Position numbers and translations under genes: made by a program. A DNA stretch of 47,417 bases from Methyloversatilis sp. (GTDB lineage: Bacteria > Pseudomonadota > Gammaproteobacteria > Burkholderiales > Rhodocyclaceae): positions 1 to 47,417 of the forward strand of contig JAEUNO010000023.1 of the NCBI GenBank assembly GCA_016791045.1, written 5' to 3'. Numbering within the stretch: the stretch's first letter is position 1; every line of letters begins with the position of its first letter. Shown in pieces: positions 11,844 through 47,417 of the stretch. Under the pieces are notes generated by a model. The model ran no database searches and was not told the origin of the DNA. It saw nothing but the letters and a program-made list of their open reading frames with translations.

Positions 11844-13286
11844 ATGAAAACAGCGGCAATGGGCGGGGTCGGTGAGACCTACGACTACCGGGTGGTGCGG
11901 CAATTCTCGCTGATGACCGTGGTCTGGGGCATCGTGGGCATGCTGGTCGGCGTGATCATCGCCGCCCAGCTGGTATGGCCCGAACTGAACTTCGGCGAGT
12001 GGTTTCACTTCGGGCGTCTGCGGCCCCTGCATACGAACGCGGTGATCTTCGCGTTCGGCGGCTGCGCGTTGATGGCGACTTCGCTGTTCGTCGTGCAGCG
12101 CACCTGTCACACCCGGCTGTTCGCACCCTGGCTGGCCGGCTTCGTGTTCTGGGGCTGGCAGGCGGTCATCGTGCTGGCCGCCATCACCTTGCCGCTGGGC
12201 TACACGCAGGGCAAGGAATATGCCGAGCTCGAGTGGCCGATCGACATCCTGATCACGCTGGTGTGGGTGTCCTACGCGATCGTGTTCTTCGGCACCATCG
12301 TGAAGCGCAAGACGCCGCACATCTATGTCGCCAACTGGTTCTACGGCGCCTTCATCCTCGCGGTGGCGATGCTGCACCTGGTCAACAGCGCAGCCATCCC
12401 GGCCAGTTTCTGGAAGTCCTACTCGGCCTATGCCGGCGTGCAGGACGCGATGATCCAGTGGTGGTACGGCCACAACGCGGTCGGCTTCTTCCTGACCGCC
12501 GGCTTCCTCGGCATGATGTATTACTTCGTGCCCAAGCAGGCCGAGCGCCCGGTGTATTCCTACCGCCTGTCGGTGGTGCACTTCTGGGCGCTGATCTTCA
12601 CCTACATGTGGGCGGGTCCGCACCACCTGCACTACACCGCGCTGCCCGACTGGACGCAATCGCTCGGCATGGTGTTCTCGCTGATCCTGCTGGCACCGAG
12701 CTGGGGCGGCATGATCAACGGCATCATGACGCTGTCGGGTGCCTGGCACAAACTGCGCACCGATCCGATCCTGAAGTTCCTGATCACCTCGCTGTCCTTC
12801 TACGGCATGTCGACCTTCGAAGGTCCGATGATGTCGATCAAGACGGTCAATGCGCTGTCGCACTACACGGACTGGACCATCGGCCACGTGCATTCGGGCG
12901 CACTCGGCTGGGTGGCAATGATTTCGATCGGTTCGATCTACTACCTGATCCCGCGCCTGTTCGGCCAGGAAAAGATGTACTCGGTGCCGGCCATCAGCAT
13001 CCACTTCTGGATGTCGACCCTGGGCGTGGTCCTCTACATCGCCGCAATGTGGATCGCGGGTGTCATGCAGGGCCTGATGTGGCGCGCCATCAACGACGAC
13101 GGCACGCTGACCTACACCTTCGTCGAAAGCGTGAAGGCGACCTATCCGTTCTGGTTCATCCGCTTCCTCGGCGGCGCGCTCTTCCTGGCAGGCATGTTCG
13201 TCATGGCCTGGAACGTGTGGAAAACCATCGCCGGCCAGAAGGCCTACAACGCCCCTGTCATAGCGCCTGCCGCCGCGCACGCCTGA
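11844..13286 (+). CDS. ccoN: Cytochrome cbb3 oxidase subunit I
   Basis: This is the catalytic subunit of the high-affinity C-type heme-copper oxidase, which reduces oxygen to water with heme b, heme b3 and CuB and pumps protons. It has 480 aa with about twelve membrane helices. Metal-binding histidine regions are visible in order: the heme b helix [13 protein letters not shown], the CuB helix YGHNAVGFF, the pair [11 protein letters not shown] and the later [10 protein letters not shown]. The start at 11844 has GGAG nine bases upstream and begins [12 protein letters not shown] frame open from 11724 would cross the FNR box and is rejected. It heads a tightly packed ccoNOQPGH operon. Confidence 0.97.
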
Positions 13287-33016: not shown

Positions 33017-34477
33017 ATGGATACGCACATGAGCGCCACACCCGTTGCCACCGATCCACTCGAGGTCTGGGTGGACAAGCTGCGCAATCAGGACATGCCC
33101 ATCTTCAGCGCGACGCTGGCCGCCATCGGCGAGGTCGCGGAGAACGACGCCAGTCCGACGTCGGCGCTCGGGCGCATCATCCTGCGCGATGCCGGCATGA
33201 CGGCGCGCGTGCTCCGCATGGCGAACTCCGTGTTTTTCCACGGAGAAGGCAGCAGAATCAACACCATTTCGCGTGCGATCGTACTGCTCGGTTTCGACAC
33301 CGTGCGCAACATCGCCATATCGGTCGCACTGATCGACGCCTTCCTGGCAGGTGGCGTGCGTGACCGGGTCAGCGCCGAAATGGCGCGCTGCTTTCACGCG
33401 GCCGTCCATGCCAAGCATGCCGCCACGGTGCGTGGCGATGCCTCGCCGGAAGAGGTGTTCATCGCGACGCTGCTGTCGCGCATCGGCGAGCTGGCCTTCT
33501 GGTGCTTCTCCGGGGAAGCGGGGCAGCAGCTGGATCGCGCGCTGCGCAAGCCCGCTGCCGTGCCGGAAAAGGTCGAAAGCGAGGTGCTCGGCTTCCGGCT
33601 GCGTTCGCTGACCCAGTTGCTGGCGCGCGAATGGACGCTGCCCGGACTGGTGGCGAACGCCTGTACGGACACCGCGCGGTCTGACAGTCGCGAAGCGCTG
33701 GTGATCGCCAGCTACCGGCTGGCCAGCGCCGCCGAAGCCGGCTGGCAAAGCGAAAAGGCGCGTGAATCGGTGCGCGACTACGCCAAGCTGCTGCGGCAGG
33801 ACGTGGCAGCCGTCGCGCCGGTGGTCGCCGCGCACGCGCGCGAAGCGGCCTGCCTTGCAGGATTCTATGGTTGCGAAGAGGCCGCGGCGCGCATTCCGGT
33901 GCCGGCGCGTCCGGACGAAGAGGATGAAACCGGCGCGCCAGCCATTCTGGCCGACCCCGATCCGGCGCTGCAGTTCGACATTTCGCGTCGCATGGTGGCG
34001 CTGATTGCAGCGCACTCGGCGTCCGGCGCGGTGCTCGACCTGGCGCTCGAAGGCGCCGGCCGCTCGCTGGGCGCCGACCGCGCCGTGCTTGCGCTGGTCA
34101 CCGCCAACCGCTCACAGCTCGCGGCCCGGGCCACGCATGGCCGCGGCGCGCAGCAACTCATGCGTCACTTCAATTTCCTGCTGGCCGGCGCTGCGCGCGA
34201 TGCGCTGACCGAACTGGTCGATCACGGACGCGTCATCGACGTCGAGGCGTCACACGTGCCCGCCCCGGGATTGCCGTCCATCACGCGCCTGCGGTCGGCA
34301 TTGGGCCAGCGACACCAGGTGCTGGTGCCGATCAACGCGCACGGCCACGTCGTGGGCGTGCTGTACATCGATCGCGCCGCGGAGCGCCCGCCGATGCGGC
34401 CCGGCACGCCGGACGCACTCGCAACCTTCGCCCAGCTGGCCGGCATCGCCCTGGAAGCGTCGTCGCGCAAGGCCTGA
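33017..34477 (+). CDS. HDOD-domain signalling protein with GAF-like C terminus
   Basis: This 486-aa cytoplasmic protein has an N-terminal HDOD domain (about residues 15-215), recognisable from LGRIILRDAGMTARVLRMANSVFF and the later LLGFDTVRNIAISVALIDAF. HDOD proteins lack the catalytic HD pair and act as scaffolds in two-component or motility signalling. The last 150 residues resemble a GAF sensor (APGLPSITRLRSALGQRHQVLVPI with VVGVLYIDRAAERPP). The ATG at 33017 or 33029 may be used, and neither has a strong ribosome site. The gene converges on the phosphoester-hydrolase operon. Confidence 0.85.
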   Translation: MDTHMSATPVATDPLEVWVDKLRNQDMPIFSATLAAIGEVAENDASPTSALGRIILRDAGMTARVLRMANSVFFHGEGSRINTISRAIVLLGFDTVRNIAISVALIDAFLAGGVRDRVSAEMARCFHAAVHAKHAATVRGDASPEEVFIATLLSRIGELAFWCFSGEAGQQLDRALRKPAAVPEKVESEVLGFRLRSLTQLLAREWTLPGLVANACTDTARSDSREALVIASYRLASAAEAGWQSEKARESVRDYAKLLRQDVAAVAPVVAAHAREAACLAGFYGCEEAAARIPVPARPDEEDETGAPAILADPDPALQFDISRRMVALIAAHSASGAVLDLALEGAGRSLGADRAVLALVTANRSQLAARATHGRGAQQLMRHFNFLLAGAARDALTELVDHGRVIDVEASHVPAPGLPSITRLRSALGQRHQVLVPINAHGHVVGVLYIDRAAERPPMRPGTPDALATFAQLAGIALEASSRKA

Positions 34478-34496
34478 CCGGGGAACGCCCGGTCAG
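34474..34496. terminator. Hairpin between HDOD gene and endonuclease/phosphatase gene
   Basis: CTGACCGGG (34474-34482) and CCCGGTCAG (34488-34496) pair over nine bases around GAACG, including the HDOD stop codon. The two flanking genes converge here. No U tract. Confidence 0.45.
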
Positions 34497-34502
34497 CGCC
34501 CC

Positions 34503-35921
34503 TTACTTCCGGCGCCGTGCCACCCCCGCGATCAGGCCCAGACCAGCCAGCAGCATCGCGTATGTTTCGGGCTCGGGCACCACCGTCACGTCCACCCATA
34601 CGGCCTTGTGATCCGAACTCGGGTAGTTCGCGTACAGGTTCTGGTCGCGGAAATTGCCGACCAGATCGTATTCGTCGCCGGTCGTGTTCGGCGCGCTGCG
34701 GTCAGGGTCGGCCGGCCAGAATATGCCGGCGCCTTCGATCTGCAGGTTGGCCGAGGGCAGTACGTAATCCACCCGCAGATTGCCGGGCGCCGAATCGCTG
34801 AAATCGGCGGTGTCCTGCGCCGGATCGCCGATGTGGCTCTGATTGGCGCTGCCGTTGTTGCTCGGGTGGGTGGCTGCATCGACACCACCCGGCGCCGACG
34901 GTGTGACCGAGGTATTGACCAGCGGATTGTCCAGCAGCTGGCCGATCGCGTTGTATTGCGTGCCCGCTACCGTGCCCTTGAAGCTGTCACCATCCAGCGG
35001 GTCGGCGTTGTAGTCGCCGGCAATGACGAATTTCGCACCCGCCGCCAGACCGCCGGTGTTGCCCTGATCGTCATAGATGTAGCCGGCGCCGGCGATGTAG
35101 TCGGCCCAGAAGCGGATTTCGTCGTGGTTGCGCTTGCCGTTGCGATCTTCCGCGCCGTCGAAGGTCGGCGGTGTCGGGTGGGCGGTCAGGAAATGCACGT
35201 CCTGACCGTTGATGCGCACCGTCACATCGACATGGTTCTTCGACGACAGGCGCAGCGCGTCGATTTCGGCCGGCGAATAGAAATCGGCGAGATTGCTGGC
35301 GGTCGGGTCATTGGTCAGCAGATTGCCCGGCATGTCCTTCCACAGGAAGGTCTGGAAGCTGCGCACGCCGACGATTTCGTACTTCGAGTAGATCGTGAAG
35401 CCGAACTGGCCGCCGAAATTGCCGAAGCCGAAAGCATCGTCGCCGCCAGCGATCACACCGTTGTTGTTCAGGTCGAAGCCCGACGCCAGACCGGTGTTGG
35501 TGTTCGGTGTGTAGCGGAAGGCGTAGTCGATGCCGCTGGTCAGGCCGCGCACGGCATTGCCCTGACCGACCGACAGGAAGTTCTGCTGGAACAGCCGCGC
35601 GCCCTCGCTTGAGTAGCCGAGGCCCATCGGCACGCTGCTGGCGGTCGGCGTGCCATTCAGGTCGAAGTCGAATTCATTCACCAGCAGCACGTCGGCCTGC
35701 ACGCGCTGGGCGATTTCGGCCACGTTGCGCGCCTGCTGGATGCGGTTGGCGACTGTGGTGGTGACGCCGATCGCACCCGGGTTGGCGAGATCGGACAGCA
35801 GCTGGCCGGCCGCATCGCGGTTCAGCGAAGCATTGAAGGTGGCAAAGCGGACGGTTTCCGCCTGCGCCGCGCCGGCCATGACCAGCAGCGCAAGGGCAAT
35901 CGGGGTGAGGGCATGTTTCAT
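34503..35921 (-). CDS. Exported endonuclease/exonuclease/phosphatase-family protein with PEP-CTERM
   Basis: This 472-aa protein has a signal peptide (MKHALTPIALALLVMAGAAQA). The EEP fold is supported by RFATFNASLNRD at the start, LLVNEFDFD with the metal-binding glutamate, a GDYNADP motif and the final SSDHKAVW with the catalytic histidine. The fold hydrolyses phosphodiesters or phosphomonoesters of nucleic acids, lipids or inositol phosphates. The sorting signal is VPEPETYAMLLAGLGLIAG followed by VARRRK. It is the last of five minus-strand PEP-CTERM genes and converges on the HDOD gene. Confidence 0.9.
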   Translation of the reverse strand: MKHALTPIALALLVMAGAAQAETVRFATFNASLNRDAAGQLLSDLANPGAIGVTTTVANRIQQARNVAEIAQRVQADVLLVNEFDFDLNGTPTASSVPMGLGYSSEGARLFQQNFLSVGQGNAVRGLTSGIDYAFRYTPNTNTGLASGFDLNNNGVIAGGDDAFGFGNFGGQFGFTIYSKYEIVGVRSFQTFLWKDMPGNLLTNDPTASNLADFYSPAEIDALRLSSKNHVDVTVRINGQDVHFLTAHPTPPTFDGAEDRNGKRNHDEIRFWADYIAGAGYIYDDQGNTGGLAAGAKFVIAGDYNADPLDGDSFKGTVAGTQYNAIGQLLDNPLVNTSVTPSAPGGVDAATHPSNNGSANQSHIGDPAQDTADFSDSAPGNLRVDYVLPSANLQIEGAGIFWPADPDRSAPNTTGDEYDLVGNFRDQNLYANYPSSDHKAVWVDVTVVPEPETYAMLLAGLGLIAGVARRRK

Positions 35922-35949
35922 GTCGGTGTGTCCTTTCAGAGGGGGCGTT

Positions 35950-37125
35950 TCAGCGGCGGCGCAGGCGCAGCGTGAGCGTCATCAGGCCGAGGCCGGCGAG
36001 GAACTGCACGATGCGGGTGGGTTCGGGTACGGCGGACACTTCAAGCGCGATGAACTGGGTGACCTGGGTGCCGCTGAAGTTATTGTCGGCCGCCAGCACC
36101 AGCGTGCGGTTGCCGTTGGCCAGCGTGTGGCCCCAGCTGATCGCTTCGATGTTGTCGAGCGTGATGCCGTCGAAGCTGATCGGCATTTCGAGCAGCAGCT
36201 CGCGGCGCATCGGCGTGTAGGTGGCGCCGACCAGACTGTCGAAGCTGCTCACGTCGGTGGTGTCCGGCATGATTTCGGCGAGCGTGAGGCGGATGGTGTT
36301 GCCCACGCCGAAGGCGAACGCGCGTTCCACCGCGATGAACTGCGTGTCCGAAAGCGCCAGCAGTTCCGGCAGGCCGTTATCCGGACCGAACGGCGCACCG
36401 GGAACGGCATCGACCGGAATCTGCGGCAGTGCGTATACATATTGCGCACCGGCCGCGCCGCTGACCGGATCGAGCGCGGTCACGCGCACCACGCTGCCGT
36501 TGTTGATCGACGTGAGCGGGCCGTCCTGCACCAGCGCGTCTTCATTGGCGGTCCAGATCGTGCCGCCGGGCGACACCGTCAGCGCCTCGAACAGCTTGTT
36601 GCTGCGCCCGCCGGTGGTGGCGTTGTCGACGTAGTTGAACATCGCCGGCGTGGCGAATTCGCGCACGAAGACGCCCGAGGTCGTCATTTCGCGCACGAAG
36701 GGCTGGTAGCGGCTGGCTGCGTTGCCGCTCCAGTTGCCTTCCGACGACCAGTACAGATTGCCGTTCGGCGCCACCCGGATGCCTTCCGGATCGACCGTGC
36801 GCGCGTTCGACGGAAAGGTCGAGCCGTCCGGCCGCTGCATGAAGGTCTGGCTGTTCACGGTGACACCGTTGAAGCCGGCGGCGTCGTAATCGAGCGACAG
36901 GTTGTAGAAGCGCGGCGTGCCGCGCTCGCCGCCGCGGTCATCGGAAATCGCCCAGTAGCGGCCGTCGGCGGCGCGGTCGAGCCCGGAAATGCCGCCGAAT
37001 TCGACGCCTTCGAACAGCGTGCCGGTCGCGATGCGCTGCTCGCCGATGACGCGCAGCGAGAAATCGGCCGCCAGCGTGTGGCCGGCAAAGGTGGCGAGCA
37101 GGGCCACCAGCAAGGTCTTCTTCAT
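35950..37125 (-). CDS. Exported phytase/esterase-like protein with degenerate PEP-CTERM
   Basis: This 391-aa protein has a signal peptide (MKKTLLVALLATFAGHTLAA). It resembles the esterase-like domain of phytases (PF13449 type), a beta-propeller-like enzyme group, from EFGGISGLDRAADGRYWAISDDRG, DPEGIRVAPNGNLYWSSEGN and NKLFEALTVSPGGTIWTANEDAL. The C terminus keeps VPEP and a hydrophobic helix with an Arg-rich tail (LRLRRR) but has TRIVQF in place of ETYAML, so the sorting signal is divergent. The start is 18 bp after the GDPD stop. Confidence 0.87.
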   Translation of the reverse strand: MKKTLLVALLATFAGHTLAADFSLRVIGEQRIATGTLFEGVEFGGISGLDRAADGRYWAISDDRGGERGTPRFYNLSLDYDAAGFNGVTVNSQTFMQRPDGSTFPSNARTVDPEGIRVAPNGNLYWSSEGNWSGNAASRYQPFVREMTTSGVFVREFATPAMFNYVDNATTGGRSNKLFEALTVSPGGTIWTANEDALVQDGPLTSINNGSVVRVTALDPVSGAAGAQYVYALPQIPVDAVPGAPFGPDNGLPELLALSDTQFIAVERAFAFGVGNTIRLTLAEIMPDTTDVSSFDSLVGATYTPMRRELLLEMPISFDGITLDNIEAISWGHTLANGNRTLVLAADNNFSGTQVTQFIALEVSAVPEPTRIVQFLAGLGLMTLTLRLRRR

Positions 37126-37143
37126 TTCGTGGTCTCCGGGTGA

Positions 37144-38361
37144 TCAGGCGCGACGGCGCGCAGCAGCGCCGATCAGGCCGAGGCCGGCCAGCAGCATCGC
37201 GTACGTTTCGGGTTCCGGCACTGCGGCCAGTGCGGCGAGGGCGGTGTCCGGGTGATCCGAAAACACGCCATCCACGCCCAGGGCGTAGAACGCGGCGTAC
37301 TCCTCTTCCGGCGTGCCATAGCCGAGCTGGTAGCCGATCGAGTCGTCGCGGAAAGTCCAGGTGTGCACCAGCAGACCGCGTTCGTGGGCGGCTTCGACGA
37401 TGCCGGTGCTGCCTTCGACCAGGCGGTCGCGCGCGTCGATGACGCCGTCGCCGGTGCGTTCGACGCCATCGGCCACCGTCTTCAGCAGATAGGGCTTCCA
37501 CGGGCCGATGCCGTCGGCGTAGCCGGCGATGAAGTCGAGGCCGGCTGCGGTCAGCAGGTCACCGAAGGTGCGCGGGTCACCCGCTTCGGCGAAGTCGAAC
37601 GGGCGGTCATACGGCGGTACCGTCAGGTCCATGCTGCCATCGGCATTCACGTCCCAGGCATCCATCAACTGCACCAGACGGATGTCGGTCTTGCCGTTCA
37701 GATACTGCAGGTTCGATACCTCGAACGACTGGATGAACACCGGTGCGGCGGCCGAGTTGCCATAGGCGGCGTGCAGCGTGCTGACCAGCTTGTCCTCGAA
37801 GTAATTCGCGGCGAAGCCGTTGTTCGCGGCCTGCGCATTCATGTAGACCGAATGCTTCAGTTCCGGGTAGATGCCCACGCCCTTCGACTGCGCCAGCGTG
37901 ATCACTTCGTCCAGCGTCGGGATTTCGTACAGGCCGTTGAAGCTCTGGTCGCGGTCGGCGCGCGGCTGGATGGCGCGCAGCGTCTTGATTTCGGCCAGCG
38001 TGAAGGTGTCGGCGAAGTAGGCGGTGGTCGACACGCCGTCAAGCAGTCGCGTGGACTTGCGGCTGGCATCGAACACGCTGGACACATTGGTCGTGCCGTC
38101 GAGTATCGGCTCGTGGCGGGCGATCAGGTGACCATCCTTCGTCAGCACCAGATCCGGTTCGATGAAGTGCGCACCCTGGTCGATGGCGAGCGCATACGAC
38201 GCCAGCGTGTGCTCCGGCAGGTAGCCGGAGGCGCCACGGTGGCCGATGACGATGGGGGCGGCGCCGTCGAGGGTGTTCCAGGCGAGGGCCGCCGGTGCGT
38301 TGAAGGCGGACAGCAGTGCGACACACAGCAGGGCGGGACGAAGCGAAGCCAGATTTTTCAT
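37144..38361 (-). CDS. Exported glycerophosphodiester phosphodiesterase with PEP-CTERM (copy A)
   Basis: This 405-aa GDPD-family enzyme would release glycerol phosphate from glycerophosphodiesters outside the cytoplasm. A signal peptide covers about 1-27. Catalytic residues are all present: H41-R42 in GHRGASG, E68 and D70 in IEPDLVLTKDG and H83 in ARHEP. The C terminus reads VPEPETYAMLLAGLGLIGA followed by AARRRA. It is a close paralogue of the next upstream gene, with which it shares GASGY-PEHTL and PDLV-TKDG-LIARHEP, and probably arose by tandem duplication. Confidence 0.93.
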   Translation of the reverse strand: MKNLASLRPALLCVALLSAFNAPAALAWNTLDGAAPIVIGHRGASGYLPEHTLASYALAIDQGAHFIEPDLVLTKDGHLIARHEPILDGTTNVSSVFDASRKSTRLLDGVSTTAYFADTFTLAEIKTLRAIQPRADRDQSFNGLYEIPTLDEVITLAQSKGVGIYPELKHSVYMNAQAANNGFAANYFEDKLVSTLHAAYGNSAAAPVFIQSFEVSNLQYLNGKTDIRLVQLMDAWDVNADGSMDLTVPPYDRPFDFAEAGDPRTFGDLLTAAGLDFIAGYADGIGPWKPYLLKTVADGVERTGDGVIDARDRLVEGSTGIVEAAHERGLLVHTWTFRDDSIGYQLGYGTPEEEYAAFYALGVDGVFSDHPDTALAALAAVPEPETYAMLLAGLGLIGAAARRRA

Positions 38362-38427
38362 GAATGTCTCTCCGGGAGATGCGGGGGGCTTCCTGAGAGG
38401 CGCGCCGGGTGCGGCGCGCCCCGGGGC

Positions 38428-39702
38428 TCAGCCGGCCTTGCGGCGGCGTGCCATGAAACCGGTCAGCGCGAGGCCGGCCAGCAGCATGGCGTAGGTTTCC
38501 GGCTCGGGAATCGACGCCACGGCGGCGACGCCGATGTCCGGGTGATCGGTGAAGAACCCGTCCAGCCCGAGTGCGGTGAAGGCGAGGATCTGGCCCTTCA
38601 TGTCGCCGAAGGCGGCCGGGTCGCTGCTGGAATCGAACTCGTTCGGCAGGAACACGTTTTCCGCGCGGAAGGTCCAGGCATGCACCTCGAGGCCGAGGCT
38701 GTGCGCGTCGGCGATCAGGCTGGTCGGTGTGCCGAGCACGCCGCCCACCAGCGGAATCAGCAGATTGGTGTTGGCGCCGACGCCATCGGCGTACCCCTCG
38801 ATGAACAGCAGGCCGTCGGCGTCAAGCTCGGCCAGTTGCGCATAGGTGCGCAGGTCGCCCGCGACCGTGAAGTCATAGGGCCGGCCGCCGCCATTGAGCA
38901 GCTGCGCGATCCTGATGTCGGTCAGCGTATTGACGTACTGCAGGTTCGACACTTCGAACGACTGGATATACACCGGCGCGCTGGCGGTGTTGCCGTAGTT
39001 GGCGTGCAGCGTCGCAACCAGCGTGTCTTCCATGCGCTGCAGGCCGTTGGCGTCGCTGAAGTTCTTGAAGTAGGTCGGGTGCTTGGTTTCCGGGTAGATG
39101 CCGATGGTGCGGCCGGTTTCGACGCTCTTCGCCTTGGCCAGGTCGATCACTTCCTGCAGTGTCGGAATGACGAACTGGTTGTTGTAGGCGTTGTTGCCGG
39201 TGCGCAGGTCGCGCAGGCGCTCCTGGGTACGGATGTCGGTGCGGATTTCGGCCGCGGTGAAATCTTCCGCCCACCAGCCACCCACCTTGGTGCCGTCGAG
39301 CGTCTTGACGGTCAGGCGATCGCTGTACTTTTCCAGCTCCCACACATTGGTGCTGGTATCGGTGCGGTTGAGCACCGGCTTGCCATCGGCGCCGAACACG
39401 ATGTTGCCGCTGGCATCGAGATTGACGCGCGCCAGCATCGGCTCGTGGCGGGCGATCAGCACGCCGTCCTTCGTCATGACGAGGTCGGGCTCGATGTAGT
39501 TGGCGCCCTGTTCGATGGCCAGCGTGTAGGCCTCGAGGGTGTGCTCCGGGCGGTAACCGGAGGCGCCCCGGTGGCCGATCACCAGCGGCGCATTGCCGCT
39601 GAGCGTGTTGTAGGGCGATGCGGCCAGCGCATCGGACGGCGCCAGCAGCGGGGCGGCGCCCAGCGTGGCGGCGAGTGCGGCAAACAGTGCGGTGTGTTTC
39701 AT
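38428..39702 (-). CDS. Exported glycerophosphodiester phosphodiesterase with PEP-CTERM (copy B)
   Basis: This 424-aa protein starts MKHTALFAALAATLGAAPLL, a signal peptide. The catalytic set is H44-R45, E71, D73 and H86. A segment of about 25 residues after ARHEP (VNLDASGNIVFGADG...) has no counterpart in copy A. The end is IPEPETYAMLLAGLALTGF with the MARRRK basic tail. The ATG at 39702 has GAGGT seven bases upstream. The open frame to 39777 has no signal peptide. It is co-directional with copy A (66-bp gap). Confidence 0.93.
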   Translation of the reverse strand: MKHTALFAALAATLGAAPLLAPSDALAASPYNTLSGNAPLVIGHRGASGYRPEHTLEAYTLAIEQGANYIEPDLVMTKDGVLIARHEPMLARVNLDASGNIVFGADGKPVLNRTDTSTNVWELEKYSDRLTVKTLDGTKVGGWWAEDFTAAEIRTDIRTQERLRDLRTGNNAYNNQFVIPTLQEVIDLAKAKSVETGRTIGIYPETKHPTYFKNFSDANGLQRMEDTLVATLHANYGNTASAPVYIQSFEVSNLQYVNTLTDIRIAQLLNGGGRPYDFTVAGDLRTYAQLAELDADGLLFIEGYADGVGANTNLLIPLVGGVLGTPTSLIADAHSLGLEVHAWTFRAENVFLPNEFDSSSDPAAFGDMKGQILAFTALGLDGFFTDHPDIGVAAVASIPEPETYAMLLAGLALTGFMARRRKAG

Positions 39703-39801
39703 GGTGCAGACCTCGGTGTCGGGAGCGTTGTCGGGTGATTCGCAGGGTGGTTCCGTCGGGCGCCGGTCCGCAGGCACGATTGCCCGCGGACCGCGTGGCG
39801 C

Positions 39802-41151
39802 TCAGCGCGTGCGACGGCGCACGGCCGCGCCGATCAGGCCGAGACCGGCCAGCAGCATTGCGTAGGTTTCGGGCTCCGGCACCGGGTTGGCGAGGCTGAT
39901 CTTCAGGAACTCGGTGTGGTCGGAGCCGAAGTCGCGACCGCCGGTGCCGGGGTAGTTGTTGTCGTTGATCACCAGCAGCGTGTTGGCGTCGAGGATGAGC
40001 ACGTCCTCGATGGTCACGTAGGGGAAGGTGAAGGTGGTGAGGCCGTCGCCATTCAGGTCGTCCGGGTCGGCGATGTTCATCAGGTCGACCAGTTCGGTCT
40101 TGGTGACGAAGCCGCCGTCGGCGACACCGGTGGTGTCGGCGATGAAGATCTTCTTGAACGGTGTGCCGCTGGTGGCGGTGCCGCCGTTGCGCTCGATCAC
40201 CAGGAAGCGGTGATCGTCGATGGCGGTCATGTCGCCGATGGCCGTGCCCTGCGCTTCGAGTTGATACAGGTAGTCGAGGCCGGTATAGCTTTCGCTGTCG
40301 ATGTTGAACTCATTGATGCGCAGGCTTCTGGCGGGATCGCCGGCAACCGTGCGCTCGAGCAGCGTGTAGAGCCGGTCGCCGCTGGCGTTGATGGCCATGC
40401 CCTCGAAGCCGCCCGAGCTGCCGAGATTGCTCGCCACCGAACCGTTCAGCACCGCCTCATGCTGCGGCGCGAACACGCCGGGCAGCGCGATTTCGCGACG
40501 CTGCACCACGCCGCTGGCATCGGTCTTGACCAGGTAGGGGCCGAATTCGTCACCGAACCACAGGTTGCCGTTCTTGTCCTGACGCACCGATTCGATGTCC
40601 AGATCGGCGCCGGTGAGCAGGCGGCCGGACTTGATCGACGCATCCACCAGCGGGTTGGCGGCGTTGTTGTAGTAGTTCGTGTAGTCGGCCTGGATCTTGA
40701 TGCTCAGCAGGTTCTTCGGGTCGCTCAGCGTGATGCGGCTGGCTGCGTCGAAGGCCGGCAGCGACGCGCCGGAATTCCAGTCGGCGGCGGACACGCTGCC
40801 GCTGCCGCCCTGTGCGGTGCGGAAGTCGACATTCACCGCGTAGCTGCGCAGCAAGGTGTCACCCGAATTGCCCTGGGTGCCGAAGCCGTTGTCCGAGATG
40901 ACGCGGAAGCTGCCATTGGCACCGGTCAGCACGCCGGAAAAGCCCTGTACCGGTTGCCGGTCGATCAGCGGCAGCGGGTTGCCACCGGCGCCGGCGCCGG
41001 CAAACTGGCCCGAGGTCGGGCCGTCGGAGAAGGTATTGGCCGGCATCACGGCCCAGCCGGCCAGCGTGTTCTGTGCGGCGTGCGCGGTCGGTGCGGCGAA
41101 GGCGGCGGTCAGCGCGAGCGCGAGGCTCAGACGTGCGAAATCAGCGTTCAT
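39802..41151 (-). CDS. Exported phytase/esterase-like protein with PEP-CTERM
   Basis: This 449-aa protein has a signal peptide (MNADFARLSLALALTAAFAAPTAHA) and an esterase-like phytase-type domain: GFSGVLTGANGSFRVISDNGFG, DIESVRQDKNGNLWFGDEFGPYL, GGFEGMAINASGDRLYTLLE and DDHRFLVIERN. It is longer than the gene at 35950 and only distantly similar. The C terminus VPEPETYAMLLAGLGLIGAA plus VRRRTR is canonical. A GGGGAG ribosome site lies eight bases before the ATG. It heads the minus-strand run of five exported hydrolase genes and is divergent from argJ. Confidence 0.88.
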   Translation of the reverse strand: MNADFARLSLALALTAAFAAPTAHAAQNTLAGWAVMPANTFSDGPTSGQFAGAGAGGNPLPLIDRQPVQGFSGVLTGANGSFRVISDNGFGTQGNSGDTLLRSYAVNVDFRTAQGGSGSVSAADWNSGASLPAFDAASRITLSDPKNLLSIKIQADYTNYYNNAANPLVDASIKSGRLLTGADLDIESVRQDKNGNLWFGDEFGPYLVKTDASGVVQRREIALPGVFAPQHEAVLNGSVASNLGSSGGFEGMAINASGDRLYTLLERTVAGDPARSLRINEFNIDSESYTGLDYLYQLEAQGTAIGDMTAIDDHRFLVIERNGGTATSGTPFKKIFIADTTGVADGGFVTKTELVDLMNIADPDDLNGDGLTTFTFPYVTIEDVLILDANTLLVINDNNYPGTGGRDFGSDHTEFLKISLANPVPEPETYAMLLAGLGLIGAAVRRRTR

Positions 41152-41486
41152 GGTTCATCTCCCCTGTGTGGTCGGTCCGGTCGATGCCGGCAACACGCGG
41201 AAGGCTGGGGAGGGCGCTTTGCAGTGCCGTGAAGGTGAACTGGTCCGTTCGGATCATGGCGCGTCGCCGGCCGCACGCAGCATGGCTTTGCACGCAGGCG
41301 GCAGACCCACCGAAAGCGCGCGGGAGGCTGCTTTCCGGCACTCCGTGCAGGGCCAGGATTGCGCGCCGGTTACAGAGCAGGTGAATTCGTGTGACGGGCG
41401 TGCAGTGCGGCGGTGTGCCACACGAATCGACGGTCGGCACCGGCCTGCATGTAAACTCGCGGCTTTACCCCCTGCGAGACCCCGCC
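41152..41486. other. Divergent region between phytase-like gene and argJ
   Basis: This is 335 bp with no convincing gene. TGTAAACT at 41450-41457 (extended -10 type, TAAACT at 41452) lies 30 bp before argJ. No Pho-box-like direct repeat (CTGTCAT type) was recognised on either strand. Confidence 0.5.
41450..41457 (+). promoter_or_regulatory. Possible extended -10 element of argJ
   Basis: TGTAAACT, followed by CGCGGC, lies 30 bp before the argJ ATG. The -35 region is weak (TCGACG at 41427-41432, 19-bp spacer). Confidence 0.35.
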
Positions 41487-42728
41487 ATGCCCGTGAATTA
41501 CCAGACGCCGCCTGCCGAATCCATCCTGCCGGTCGCCGGCGTGCGATTGGGCATCGCCCAGGCCGGCATCCGCAAGGCCAACCGGCGCGACCTGTGCCTG
41601 ATATCGCTGGTGCCGGGCGCCCGCGTGGCCGGCGTATTCACGGTGAACCGCTTCTGCGCCGCGCCGGTGCAGGTGTGCCGCGACCACCTGTCGCGCAGCG
41701 ACATCCGCGCGCTGGTCATCAACACCGGCATCGCCAACGCCGGCACCGGCGAACCCGGCCTGGTCGCCGCGCACGCCACCTGCATTGCCGTGGCGCGCGT
41801 GCTCGGCGTGGCACCGGAGCAGGTGCTGCCGTTTTCCACCGGCGTCATCATGGAGCCGCTGCCGGTCGACCGCATCGAGCGCGGTCTGCCCGCCTGCATG
41901 GCCGATCTCGACGAAGGCAACTGGCACGCTGCCGCGCACGCCATCATGACCACCGACACGGTCGCCAAGGTGGCGTCGCGCACCGTGCAGATCGACGGCC
42001 GCACCGTCACGCTCAGCGGCATCAGCAAGGGCGCCGGCATGATCAAACCCAATATGGCCACCATGCTGGGTTTCATGGCCACCGACGCCGCCGTGTCGCA
42101 GGCTGCGCTCGAAGCCATGGTGAAGCACGCCGCCGACCGCTCGTTCAACTGCATCACGGTCGACGGCGACACCTCGACCAACGATTCCTTCATGCTGATC
42201 GCCTCCGGCACGGCCGGTAACGCCGAGATCACCGCACTCGACAGCGACGCCGGCGCCGCGCTGGCCGAGGCCGTGACCTCGCTCGCCGCAGAGCTCGCCC
42301 AGGCCATCGTGCGCGACGGCGAAGGCGCGACCAAATTCATCACCATCGACATCGAGGGCGGTCGCGACGTCGCGGAGTGCAAGGCAGTCGGCTATGCCAT
42401 CGCCCACTCGCCGCTGGTGAAAACCGCCTTCTTCGCGTCCGACCCCAATCTCGGCCGCATCCTCGCTGCCGTCGGCAACGCGGCGCAGAACCATCCGCCG
42501 CTGGAAGACCTCGATACCTCGAAGGTGAGTCTGTGGATCGGCGACTTCCTGGTCGCGAAAGACGGTGGCCGCAACCCCGCCTACCGCGAAGAGCAGGGCG
42601 CCTCGGCCATGGCGCCGGCCGAAATCACCATCCGCGTGGCGCTGGGCCGGGGCACTGCTCGTGCCACCTGCTGGACCTGCGACTTCAGCTACGACTACGT
42701 GAAGATCAACGCGGACTACCGCAGCTGA
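41487..42728 (+). CDS. argJ: Glutamate N-acetyltransferase / ornithine acetyltransferase
   Basis: This enzyme of the cyclic arginine pathway moves acetyl from N-acetylornithine to glutamate. It has 413 aa. It is an Ntn-type protein that cleaves itself before the catalytic threonine, here T192 in KPNMATML preceded by KGAGMI. The [12 protein letters not shown] and [20 protein letters not shown] ends are typical. The start at 41487 gives the usual N terminus [10 protein letters not shown] frame from 41391 has no support. It is divergent from the exported hydrolase operon. Confidence 0.96.
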
Positions 42729-42733
42729 GCTGG

Positions 42734-43459
42734 ATGGACGCGCTGAGCCGGCCGCTGTCGCCACCGGAACTCGATACGCTTGAAGATTTTCTCGCGTCGC
42801 CGCAGTTCGAATACCGGGCGATGGAATTGCCGATGCTGGAAGGCTTCCTGACCGCCCTCGTCATCGGACCGCGCATGGTCATGCCCGGCGAATGGCTGCC
42901 CCGGGTATGGGACCGCTACGACGCAGCCGTGGCACCCGACTTCGCCGACGCCGGACAGGCCGCGCGCATCACCTCGCTGCTCATGCGTTTCATGAATGGC
43001 ATCGTCGACACCTTCCTGAACGACCCGGGCGCCTTCCAGCCCATCTTCCGGCAGCCCGAGCGGCGAGGTGCCCCGGAATGGTGTGAAGGCTTCCTGGCCG
43101 GCACCGCGTTCTGCGAAGCCGAATGGGCTGCGCTCTGGGACGAGGAGCCCGCACTGTTCGCACCCCTGATGCGCCTGGGGACCGACGAAGGTCGCGCGAT
43201 GATCCGCGAGGACGGTGAAACCGAGGTGTGGATGAAGCTGGTCCAGCCGATGCTGGTCGCCATTCATGAAATCTGGCTGCAGGCGCGCACCGTCCCGCCC
43301 GGCAGCGGCGACGAAGGCGCTTTCGACGATGACGATGCGCCCGGCGAAGAACCCTTTGTGCGCCGCGAGCCCAAGGTCGGCCGCGACGACGTCTGCCCGT
43401 GCGGCAGCGGCAAGGAGTTCGAGAAGTGCTGCGGTGGCGGGGACCGCTCGGTGCATTGA
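42734..43459 (+). CDS. UPF0149/YecA-type protein with SEC-C metal-binding tail
   Basis: This 241-aa cytoplasmic protein has an all-helical UPF0149 (YgfB/YecA-like) domain in the first 190 residues (PLSPPELDTLEDFLASPQ, AMELPMLEGFLTALVIGP, FLAGTAFCEAEW), an acidic linker DDDDAPGEE and a C-terminal SEC-C zinc motif CPCGSGKEFEKCC. The SEC-C tail also ends SecA, where it binds SecB and ribosomes. The start at 42734 is five bases after the argJ stop, and a frame opening at 42377 is an antisense-type extension through argJ. Function is not known. Confidence 0.88.
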   Translation: MDALSRPLSPPELDTLEDFLASPQFEYRAMELPMLEGFLTALVIGPRMVMPGEWLPRVWDRYDAAVAPDFADAGQAARITSLLMRFMNGIVDTFLNDPGAFQPIFRQPERRGAPEWCEGFLAGTAFCEAEWAALWDEEPALFAPLMRLGTDEGRAMIREDGETEVWMKLVQPMLVAIHEIWLQARTVPPGSGDEGAFDDDDAPGEEPFVRREPKVGRDDVCPCGSGKEFEKCCGGGDRSVH

Positions 43460-43594
43460 TCGACACCGTCGCGCGCCTGCGCTGCGCCTGTGTCCGATAG
43501 CCCGTTCGGACCACGCCGCCGCGCACAGGCCGTCACGTCGTCGACATCCGCTGGACCGATGATGGACGAATCGCCATCGTTTCCGGAGTTCCGA

Positions 43595-45241
43595 ATGTCT
43601 TCGTCCTGTACCTCGCCCGGCCGTCGCCGTCTGCTGCAGAGCTCCGGCGCGCTGGCCGCCACCCGCTTCACCGGCCTGATGGGCGCGCTGTATGCGCAGA
43701 ACGCGCTGGCCGCCACCGGCAAGCAGACGGTGTCCGCCCTGTCGCCCTACGGTGCACTGGCGCCGGTCAGGGACGCGACCACCGGCCTGCCGCTGCTGCA
43801 ACTGCCGCCGGGCTTCAGCTACCGCAGCTACGGCTGGACCGGCGACAGCATGAGCGACGGCAACCCGACGCCGGGCAATCACGACGGCATGGCCGTGGTC
43901 ACGTCGCGCCGCGTCGGCCGCAGCACTGAACTCGTGCTGGTGCGCAACCACGAGCGCGGTCTGGTCGCCACCCAGGCCGAGACCATCCAGGCGCCGCGCA
44001 GCTACGCCACCCAGCCGGTCAACGGCATCATCACTGTCCTATACGGCAGCCTGCCCATCCGCATCGGCGCCGGCGGCATCGTGACCGACCCGTCGGCCGC
44101 CGCACCGGCACCCTTCGTCGGCTACCCGGCCGGCGGCACCACGAACCTGCTGTTCCGCGACGCCAACTGGGCCGGCGCCACCGGCTCGATCGGCGGCACG
44201 CTGGGCAACTGCGCCGGCGGCCCGACGCCCTGGGGCACCTGGCTCACCTGCGAAGAAACCATCTACGACTTCTCCGGCATCGGCGGCAAGAAGCACGGCT
44301 ATGTGTTCGAAGTCGATGCCGACGCCGGCGACTCGATCGCCGACCCCATCATCGGCATGGGCCGCTTCGTGCATGAGGCCGTGGCGGTCGACCCGACCAC
44401 CGGCTTCGTCTATGAGACGGAAGACAACCGCAACGTATCGGCCTTCTTCCGCTACCGGCCGGCCGACACCTCGGGCGAACCGGGCAGCCTGCACAACGGC
44501 GGCACGCTGCAGGCGGCGCGCATCAAGACCATCGTGCGCAAGGCGGTACCGGCCACGCTGGCCCAGGCCAACGACCAGGGCCTGCTGAACCCGGACATCG
44601 GCGACGAATACGAACTGGAGTGGGTCGATATCGCCAACCCCGACGCCGATCCGGTGCCGGTCGCCGGCCAGCCCGGTGGTGTCAGCCTCGCCTTCATGGC
44701 CGGCCCGACCTACCAGGCCATCAGCCAGGGCGGCGCCCGCATGAGTCGCGGCGAAGGCATCTGGTACTCGGCCGGCCGGATGTTCATCGTCGACACCGCT
44801 GCCGGCACCGACGGCAGCTCGCGCGTCGGCCGGGGCGAAGGCGCGGTGTGGGAACTGACGCTGGCCACCATGCGCCTGCGCGCCATCTTCGTCAGCGGCA
44901 ACCAGACCGTCGGCAACAACCCGGACAACGTCACAGTCAGCCCGCGCGGCGGCGTGCTGCTGTGCGAAGACGGCGGCGGCTCGACCGACGTCTACGGCAC
45001 CGGCTCGCGTCTGCTCGGCCTGAATCCGGCCGGCGAGGCCTACATCTTCTGCAAGAACAACGTGACGCTGTCGGCCGACCAGATCGCGAGCGCAGGCAAG
45101 TTCGCCGCCGCCGCGGACTATCGCGGCTTCGAATTCTGCGGCGCCTGCTTCGATCCGACCGGCCGCGTGCTGTTCGCGAACATCCAGACACCGGGCATCA
45201 CCGTGGCCATCACCGGCCCGTGGGCCAAGGGCAATCTTTGA
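43595..45241 (+). CDS. Tat-exported PhoX-family alkaline phosphatase-like protein (DUF839)
   Basis: PhoX enzymes are calcium/iron-dependent monoesterases secreted by the Tat route. The 548-aa product begins with R10-R11-R12-L in GRRRLLQSSGALAAT, a twin-arginine signal. The family block NCAGGPTPWGTWLTCEE (cysteine near residue 206) and the later NPDNVTVSPRGGVLLCEDGG are present, with FVHEAVAVDPTTGFVYETEDN between them. The start at 43595 has GGAG seven bases upstream. In-frame codons back to 43490 precede the Tat motif and are not needed. No PEP-CTERM signal ends this one. A small PEP-CTERM protein follows 22 bp later. Confidence 0.9.
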   Translation: MSSSCTSPGRRRLLQSSGALAATRFTGLMGALYAQNALAATGKQTVSALSPYGALAPVRDATTGLPLLQLPPGFSYRSYGWTGDSMSDGNPTPGNHDGMAVVTSRRVGRSTELVLVRNHERGLVATQAETIQAPRSYATQPVNGIITVLYGSLPIRIGAGGIVTDPSAAAPAPFVGYPAGGTTNLLFRDANWAGATGSIGGTLGNCAGGPTPWGTWLTCEETIYDFSGIGGKKHGYVFEVDADAGDSIADPIIGMGRFVHEAVAVDPTTGFVYETEDNRNVSAFFRYRPADTSGEPGSLHNGGTLQAARIKTIVRKAVPATLAQANDQGLLNPDIGDEYELEWVDIANPDADPVPVAGQPGGVSLAFMAGPTYQAISQGGARMSRGEGIWYSAGRMFIVDTAAGTDGSSRVGRGEGAVWELTLATMRLRAIFVSGNQTVGNNPDNVTVSPRGGVLLCEDGGGSTDVYGTGSRLLGLNPAGEAYIFCKNNVTLSADQIASAGKFAAAADYRGFEFCGACFDPTGRVLFANIQTPGITVAITGPWAKGNL

Positions 45242-45263
45242 GCATCGATCCGGGAGCCATCAC

Positions 45264-45833
45264 ATGAACATCCGCCACACCCTCGCCGCCGCGCTGTGCG
45301 CCTTCGCACTCGCCCCGGCCGCCCACGCCTACACGCTCGACATCGTCGCCGCCAACGGCAACACCGTTGACACGAGCTTCAGCACGCCGGACATGCTGTC
45401 CATCGACTTCGGCCTGATCAACACGCTGCCGGTCACGCTCACGCTGACGCGCGACGAGAGCGACCTGCCGATGCTCGACTTCAACGCCATCGTCCGCAAC
45501 TACATCGGTTTCGGCTTCGAAAGCCTCACGCTGACGATTTCCGGCGGCCTGTTCAACACCCTGGGCAGCGCCGGCGCCACCTTCGGCTCGGTCGCCACCG
45601 TCACCGGCAGCTTCGACACCGCACGCATCAGCTTCAGCGGCCCGGAATACGTCGAAGCCACGCTCGGCGACTGGTTCCTCGACGGCAGCCAGACCGATTT
45701 CGTGCTCGACATCGCCAACGCCACCGGCCCGGTCACCCTGACCCTCACCGCCGCGGTGCCCGAACCCGAAAGCTGGGCCATGATGCTGGCCGGCCTGGGT
45801 CTGCTCGGCGCAGCCGCGCGTCGCCGTCGCTGA
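45264..45833 (+). CDS. Small exported PEP-CTERM protein
   Basis: This 189-aa protein has a signal peptide (MNIRHTLAAALCAFALAPAAHA) and a mature beta-rich region of unknown fold, rich in Thr, Asp and Ser, ending VPEPESWAMMLAGLGLLGA and AARRRR. Such short PEP-CTERM proteins are usually structural or carrier proteins of the cell surface. It follows the PhoX-type gene by 22 bp, so co-expression is likely. Function unknown. Confidence 0.85.
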   Translation: MNIRHTLAAALCAFALAPAAHAYTLDIVAANGNTVDTSFSTPDMLSIDFGLINTLPVTLTLTRDESDLPMLDFNAIVRNYIGFGFESLTLTISGGLFNTLGSAGATFGSVATVTGSFDTARISFSGPEYVEATLGDWFLDGSQTDFVLDIANATGPVTLTLTAAVPEPESWAMMLAGLGLLGAAARRRR

Positions 45834-45859
45834 AGGGCGGGGCAGTGCAAAGCAAATGA

Positions 45860-45888
45860 AGCATCCGGTGCCGTGCGCATCGGATGCT
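45860..45888 (+). terminator. Hairpin after the PEP-CTERM gene
   Basis: AGCATCCG (45860-45867) pairs with CGGATGCT (45881-45888), with further partial pairing inside. It lies 26 bp after the stop codon. There is no U tract, so it is a tentative transcript end. Confidence 0.4.
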
Positions 45889-45914
45889 CCGTATCGCGCC
45901 GACGCTCGCGTCAC

Positions 45915-46253
45915 TCAGCCGGGCTTCGTCTCGCCGAAGTCCGCCAGCGAGCGCTGAAGTTCGTCAGCGCCGGTCCGGATCACGGCGATGCCGTGACGCC
46001 CGAGCGTGTCCGTCATCTCCCCGACAGAAAGTCCTGCTATCCAGGCCGCCGTGCCCAAGGAGATGCATTCCTGATCGAATAGGCGCATCGCAAGCGAAGT
46101 CATCGCTTCGTCGGTCATCAGGCCCCGGTCGAACGGAACGGCCACAAAGATCGGTGCGCCGTCCTTCGTCACCACCGACAGGCGGCCGGCTTCGGCGTGG
46201 CGGATCAGTCTGTCGGCGCTTCTCTTCAGGTTGCGGGCTGAGAACGATTTCAT
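45915..46253 (-). CDS. Hybrid antitoxin: Phd-like N terminus with UPF0175-like C terminus
   Basis: This 112-aa product begins MKSFSARNLKRSADRLIRHAEAGRLSVVTKDGAPIFVAVPFD, a Phd/YefM-type DNA-binding and dimerisation segment. About residues 45-112 (AMRLFDQECISLGTAAWIAGLSVGEMTDTLGRHGIAVIRTG) match UPF0175, a family of antitoxins paired with PIN-domain proteins. The start at 46253 has AAGGGCGAG upstream. A frame that stays open to 46982 on this strand shows no family features. No toxin lies within 700 bp on either side, so it is orphan. Confidence 0.75.
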   Translation of the reverse strand: MKSFSARNLKRSADRLIRHAEAGRLSVVTKDGAPIFVAVPFDRGLMTDEAMTSLAMRLFDQECISLGTAAWIAGLSVGEMTDTLGRHGIAVIRTGADELQRSLADFGETKPG

Positions 46254-46968: not shown

Positions 46969-47417
46969 GTTTCAATCTCCATCCGACTCGGATGAGCTTT
47001 GCGAGGGGCGCGACTAGCGCGTCACCAGGTTGATGCCGCAGGCGTGCTCGTTTCAATCCACGCGCCCGTGAAGGGCGCGACCACACCCCCCGCGCCGAAA
47101 CCCGCTGCGCGCGCGAGTTTCAATCCACGCGTCCGTGAAGGGCGCGACGCGCCGCGGACCGTCTGCCAGTCGCGACCAGCGTTGTTTCAATCCACGCGCC
47201 CGTGAAGGGCGCGACCCGGCACCGAAGTAGGTGCTGGCTTCCGCATCGGTGTTTCAATCCACGCGCCCGTGAAGGGCGCGACGCGGCGTCCCCGACGTGC
47301 GAGGGATCCGGCAAGGTTTCAATCCACGCGCCCGTGACGGGCGCGACCCGGGGGCCGATGACATGGCAATTTCCAAGCTGAAGTTTCAATCCACGCGCCC
47401 GTGAAGGGCGCGACGGG
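46969..47417 (-). CRISPR. Leader-distal end of a subtype I-C-like CRISPR array
   Basis: Six intact 32-bp repeats at 47050-47081, 47117-47148, 47184-47215, 47251-47282, 47316-47347 and 47383-47414 start GTTTCAATCC and end GGGCGCGAC. Spacers are 35, 35, 35, 33 and 35 bp. Read on the minus strand, the repeat forms a CGCGCCC/GGGCGCG hairpin and ends ATTGAAAC, the I-C crRNA handle, so transcription runs right to left and the leader lies beyond the right edge. Repeat 2 has C16 to T and repeat 5 has A23 to C. A broken repeat (46969-47014) and a 35-bp spacer precede the first intact repeat. No cas gene is in the window. Confidence 0.96.

Follow-up and report, generated by a model that had tools for sequence, protein, structure and literature searches.

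The 47,417-nt contig JAEUNO010000023.1 of Methyloversatilis sp. (assembly GCA_016791045.1, 3.54 Mb; the entire contig, C5 in our numbering, is called 'the window' below) carries a minus-strand run of five genes at 34503-41151: one gene of the EEP family, two of family PF13449 (PHY1 and PHY2) and two for glycerophosphodiester phosphodiesterases (GDPD1 and GDPD2). Judging from sequence, we consider it likely that this locus is a Pho-controlled, exosortase-tagged island for scavenging organophosphates; it is conserved in Methyloversatilis, with modular content, and similar clusters occur in other betaproteobacteria. An earlier note on the same DNA had proposed surface-anchored phosphorus scavenging and had listed the five genes with their signal peptides and PEP-CTERM-type ends, as well as, past argJ, a gene of the PhoX family, of twin-arginine (Tat) type, and its small PEP-CTERM partner; both parts of this inventory were confirmed (Table 1). 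The proposal held for the exosortases, the promoter of the run and the gene order in relatives, both within the genus and outside it; no evidence was found for the inositol-phosphate role that the note gave to the 'phytase' genes.

The gaps along the run, from PHY1 to the EEP gene, are 99, 66, 18 and 28 bp. All five proteins have N-terminal Sec-type signals (recognized by eye) and C-terminal exosortase-type tails. The Pfam PEP-CTERM model scored above cut-off for four of the five and for the small partner of PhoX, i.e. for five of the six tagged proteins of the window; it missed the tail of PHY2, VPEPTRIVQFLAGLGLMTLTLRLRRR, which is of exosortase type and is canonical in some relatives from the genus. 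The genome encodes the exosortases XrtA (285.2 bits versus the NCBIfam cut-off of 208), which carries a fused EpsI domain, and XrtB (411.6 bits versus 275). Scans of positions 34300-46000 gave no sigma-70 promoters and four terminator-like sites versus 6.0 expected.

The genome has 69 PEP-CTERM matches. Domain annotation covered 29 of them (locus L030 was left out, and among 39 further matches the PF13449 gene on contig C16 alone was annotated). Phosphoesterase-type domains were present in six of the 29 proteins: EEP, the two GDPDs, PHY1, a protein with a PhoX domain on C13 and one with a 5'-nucleotidase domain on C46. No other recognized enzyme domain was detected in the 29 proteins at an E-value of 0.001, with PF13449 counted as phosphoesterase-type. 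The other GDPD of the genome, a 270-aa frame on C41, has no PEP-CTERM match. Despite the 69 matches genome-wide, five adjacent genes with such tails, together with at least one PF13449 gene at the same place in all 13 genomes of the genus, are more than would be expected by chance.

Regulation by phosphate was assessed by comparison of promoters. The genome encodes PhoB (352.6 bits versus a cut-off of 296.2), and pstB scored above cut-off in all 13 genus genomes; the pst operon was located through pstB, the PstS model TIGR00975 being above cut-off in just one of the 13. A strict E. coli-type Pho consensus (two CTGTCAT repeats) gave no clear box before pst and was set aside in favor of aligned upstream regions. 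In these alignments the pst promoter of each of the 13 genomes has the box CCTTCAC-N4-CTGTAAC or a near variant (e.g. CCTTCAC-ATGG-CTGTAAC-N10-TAGACT), with a −10 element 17 bases past the point where the second half-site begins. A second phosphatase locus, on C16, is also preceded by two good Pho half-sites, 11 bp apart, in all six genomes where it was fetched, with a third good one in four of them. A matrix trained on the pst and C16 promoters, thus excluding the locus of the run, was used to scan 699,808 positions on both strands of 17 loci, 13 of which were this locus with flanks. Of the nine top-scoring sites, eight precede PF13449 genes and one, in genome G002, a 5'-nucleotidase gene, all of them genes of this locus. 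The predicted Pho box of the run, CCTTCAC-ggca-CTGCAAA-N10-CAGCCT, starts 84 bp upstream of PHY1. Orthologous predicted sites lie upstream of the run in 13 of 13 genus genomes (seven strong, six weak), and half-site spacing and −10 distance are those of pst in all 13. Among 70 control upstream regions the maximal score was 7.3 and the median −0.4; with the pst half-sites alone, the site in the window ranks first.

Several observations weigh against Pho control of the locus. The score of the window's own site was equalled in two of 12 shuffles of the whole window, so that alone it is not significant across the window, and the site ranks fifth if the C16 half-sites alone are used. The six genomes with weak sites have best scores of 5.8-9.2, three of them not exceeding the best control, with shuffles of the region matching the observed score in 0-12 of 200 cases. 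As to the PhoX gene of the window, no convincing Pho box was found before it (best score 4.1, reached in 7 of 200 shuffles). The scan with a trained matrix, which the earlier note had suggested, thus came out in favor of the promoter of the run and against that of the PhoX gene. Upstream of the PhoX orthologues, scores were below 4.1 in G001, G004 and G010, 8.0 in G009 (4 of 200 shuffles) and 17.1 in G008 and G011, where the orthologue is situated at the C16-type locus.

In the 13 genus genomes the interval between argJ and an HDOD gene always contains at least one PF13449 gene. PHY1 is present there in 10 genomes, PHY2 or its nearest paralogue in 11, EEP in 10, at least one GDPD in five and a UshA-type 5'-nucleotidase (PF00149 with PF02872) in five; the PhoX gene with its partner was found beyond argJ in four of the 13. 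The survey of the interval was limited to stretches above 450 bp: ten uncovered stretches of more than 450 bp, in six genomes, were annotated and contained PEP-CTERM genes (for one, in G002, the tail was recognized by eye only); G006 also has a metallophosphoesterase with a signal peptide there. All genes identified in the interval are of phosphoesterase type or encode PEP-CTERM proteins.

In a comparison reaching outside the genus, relatives of EEP were found, at E-values up to 1e-30, in seven of 399 genomes of the order, including the genome under study. A PF13449 relative adjoins EEP in four of the six other genomes; in the remaining two none lies within the fetched stretch. By gene content, the association with phosphoesterases does recur, with comparable clusters in a Thiobacillus metagenome-assembled genome (MAG) and in a Burkholderiales genome. 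In the Thiobacillus locus (L203) the genes, all in one direction, encode a 5'-nucleotidase-type protein, PhoX and a PHY2 relative, both ending in PEP-CTERM, a tail-less GDPD, EEP with a PEP-CTERM tail, a further PEP-CTERM protein and PhoD, again with such a tail. G175 (L222) has EEP together with a PHY2 relative, two PhoX genes and a small PEP-CTERM gene, and in L151 EEP, a PHY2 relative and a GDPD have VPxPA-type ends in place of PEP-CTERM. (The L151 record is labelled as a Klebsiella pneumoniae MAG; the label is probably wrong.) A Burkholderiaceae MAG (L180, 535-2913) has the PF13449 and EEP relatives in a single open frame, a possible fusion, with a PhoX gene near. A simple pattern, which misses some tails, found PEP-CTERM in at least 31 of 79 PHY2 relatives, and many, e.g. 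in Acidovorax, are without it; the tail thus appears to be optional in the PHY2 family.

These data suggest the following scheme. The genes PHY1-GDPD1-GDPD2-PHY2-EEP would form a PhoB-controlled operon of exported phosphoesterases for the use of organic phosphorus. Each enzyme would be exported by Sec, after which its PEP-CTERM tail would be processed by XrtA or XrtB, a step that may keep the enzymes in the envelope or the extracellular matrix rather than letting them diffuse off. The GDPDs would cleave glycerophosphodiesters derived from phospholipid head groups, EEP would act on nucleic-acid or other phosphodiesters, and PhoX, along with the 5'-nucleotidase in relatives, would free phosphate for the Pst transporter. 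Induction would be expected under phosphate limitation, for which no data on Methyloversatilis were found in the literature.

The same genes might instead serve to maintain the matrix of a floc or biofilm, where extracellular DNA, lipids or polymer would be remodelled by the tagged nuclease, the GDPDs and the propellers, with phosphate as a by-product. We regard this as improbable. PEP-CTERM proteins have been linked to exopolysaccharide and floc formation (PMC2907700, in its accessible part), and several other PEP-CTERM proteins of the genome carry adhesion- or matrix-type domains (DNRLRE, cohesin, NIDO, CHRD), most of those scanned showing the tail only; however, a Pho-type promoter stands before the run, and the genes in which the locus varies encode phosphoesterases of several unrelated folds that have little in common but phosphate release. 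Scavenging of carbon or nitrogen, with glycerol, nucleosides and choline fed to the cell and phosphate secondary, has very little probability in our estimate: products of GDPDs and nucleotidases are indeed sources of both elements, but there is no transporter or catabolic gene among the five genes of the run, whose promoter resembles that of pst. Equally hard to sustain is passive expansion at a hot spot that gathers PEP-CTERM genes by tail recombination with no joint function, since, even though the content of the locus differs among species and a PF13449 paralogue in G011 shares nearly the tail of GDPD1, the added enzymes are all phosphoesterases, some of them tail-less (the 5'-nucleotidase and the G006 metallophosphoesterase), and comparable clusters exist in other lineages. 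The paralogue in question (L073, 9535-10719) ends in VPEPETYAMLLAGLALTGFMARRRKAG, almost the C-terminal tail of GDPD1, so that exchange of tails by recombination is possible.

The N, E, D-N and SDH motifs, which are catalytic in PF03372 proteins, are all present in the EEP protein, and the motifs NASLNR, NEFD, HPTPP, GDxNAD, LRVDYVLP and SDHK are kept in nine of nine aligned sequences, the one from the window included; a phmmer search of EEP against PDB sequences gave no match at 0.01. Catalysis by PF03009 enzymes depends on HR, E-D and H residues, and these are retained in GDPD2 when aligned to E. coli GlpQ (1t8q). For PHY1 and PHY2, PF13449 was the sole family matched in the Pfam scan apart from PEP-CTERM, with no match to any other phytase family. 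A phytase function was set aside, as the Pfam name is its sole basis and nothing points to inositol phosphates. The AlphaFold model of PHY2 (mean predicted local distance difference test score, pLDDT, 87.9) has strands throughout and a C-terminal helix at 371-390; the fold search matched generic propellers. PhoX was absent among the 50 fold-search matches listed by each of two programs for PF13449, which excludes nothing, and comparison of PF13449 with PDB sequences gave no useful match. The PF13449 propellers are probably phosphomonoesterases.

The open reading frame of the PhoX-family gene in the window is 43490-45241 on the plus strand, and a start at ~43559 is equally likely. Cys179 and Glu273 are functional residues of PhoX. 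Besides the Tat signal GRRRLLQ, the protein has NCA, HE, ED and R-G-E equivalents of the Cys179, Glu273, Asp292 and Arg385-region motifs; the stretch NCA..TPWGTWLTCEE lines up with the region around Cys179 in the solved Pseudomonas fluorescens enzyme (3zwu). With just 32.7 bits against that enzyme, it belongs to a distant branch. The roles of Asp292 and Arg385 are described in PMC11098088. The full-length relative of the P. fluorescens enzyme (529 bits) is PHOXA, at the C16 locus (L115, 5644-10397), where a PF13449 gene with PEP-CTERM, PHOXA (Tat motif GRRNFLK) and a small PEP-CTERM gene follow the Pho half-sites. On C32 (L125, 6049-9130) a Tat-type PhoX-family gene is followed by two DNRLRE-type PEP-CTERM genes, and on C13 (L126, 7899-9284) a PhoX-family domain with a Sec-type signal has its own fused PEP-CTERM tail; a predicted Pho-type site (score 12.1) was observed ~80 bp upstream of the C13 gene.

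PhoX genes are followed by one or more PEP-CTERM genes on C5, C16 and C32. The small PEP-CTERM gene comes after PHOXA in all six genomes whose C16-type locus was fetched, the pair in the window is kept in G001, G004 and G010 and, at the C16-type locus, in G009, and a tail-less 5'-nucleotidase directly precedes a PEP-CTERM gene in all five genomes with this nucleotidase at the locus. We regard it as possible, though less likely than not, that the island is a surface phosphatase array with two modes of anchoring, in which Sec enzymes would carry their own PEP-CTERM tail and a small PEP-CTERM protein from a neighbouring gene might be an adaptor that holds tail-less enzymes, i.e. PhoX (Tat-exported, cofactor-loaded) and the 5'-nucleotidase. 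Arguing against adaptors, the partner adjoins the orthologue of the window's PhoX gene in five of the nine genomes where this gene was seen; no PEP-CTERM partner was detected beside it in G008 and G011, the next PEP-CTERM gene is ~4 kb beyond it in G003 and G012, and in G006 the tail-less metallophosphoesterase closes the row. A partial match to the same PhoX protein (82% over 120 of 583 residues) lies beside argJ in G011 (L073, 4894-5253) and is perhaps the remnant of a copy.

The enzyme families of the island are those of the organophosphate hydrolases of known Pho regulons (PhoX, PhoD, GlpQ/GDPD and UshA-type 5'-nucleotidase), and PhoB, the Pho-box-type promoter and the genomic pst operon are further points of likeness. 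In E. coli and Pseudomonas, Pho-regulon hydrolases are periplasmic, lipoproteins or secreted; here, in contrast, most have an exosortase tag and are gathered in one island. Tail type, Sec signals and genomic exosortases are shared with betaproteobacterial sorting by XrtA and XrtB; such systems are mainly described, in the accessible parts of the sources, with exopolysaccharide and floc proteins, whereas the tagged proteins here resemble nutrient enzymes. A parallel in expression is the phosphorus-limitation stimulon of Nodularia spumigena, for which the accessible part of PMC9846622 describes strong induction of genes for GDPD, a PhoX-like protein and 'esterase-like activity of phytase'; Nodularia is a cyanobacterium, and the term 'PEP-CTERM' is absent from the main text of that paper. 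The combination of phosphoesterases with PEP-CTERM was not found in a full-text literature search, most subscription journals lying outside it, in agreement with the earlier note, which knew of no described system of this composition; the enzyme families are known. Exosortase sorting in betaproteobacteria, the purpose of which has been argued mostly from exopolysaccharide and floc formation, hereby gains a testable nutritional role, and a function is suggested for PF13449 proteins and for the small PEP-CTERM proteins adjoining PhoX or 5'-nucleotidase.

Table 1. Features of the phosphoesterase locus and its surroundings in the window
Feature	Position	Strand	Evidence
EEP-family (PF03372) exported phosphoesterase/nuclease (putative), PEP-CTERM tail	34503-35921	-	Pfam 66.2 bits; PEP-CTERM 34.2 bits
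PHY2, PF13449 beta-propeller protein, signal peptide, exosortase-type tail	35950-37125	-	PF13449 257.5 bits
GDPD2, glycerophosphodiester phosphodiesterase, PEP-CTERM tail	37144-38361	-	PF03009 142.1 bits; PEP-CTERM 36.6 bits
GDPD1, glycerophosphodiester phosphodiesterase, PEP-CTERM tail	38428-39702	-	PF03009 125.5 bits; PEP-CTERM 32.8 bits
PHY1, PF13449, PEP-CTERM tail, at the head of the run	39802-41151	-	PF13449 182.3 bits; PEP-CTERM 37.6 bits
Predicted Pho box and -10 element	41202-41235	-	Score 16.4, matrix from pst and C16 promoters only
argJ	41451-42728	+	
SEC-C-type gene	42728-43459	+	Named from its end, by eye
PhoX-family (PF05787), Tat motif GRRRLLQ, without PEP-CTERM of its own	43559-45241	+	273.8 bits (run from 43490)
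Small PEP-CTERM protein, directly 3' of the PhoX gene	45264-45833	+	PEP-CTERM 36.6 bits

Two further observations concern the window outside this locus. A site at 12721 on the plus strand scores 17.4 with the half-sites of the C16 promoters alone. At the end of the contig, positions 47049-47415 hold a CRISPR-type array of six 34-nt copies (GTTTCAATCCACGCGCCCGTGAAGGGCGCGAC core) with a spacing of 65-67, the repeat of which we take to resemble type I-C.

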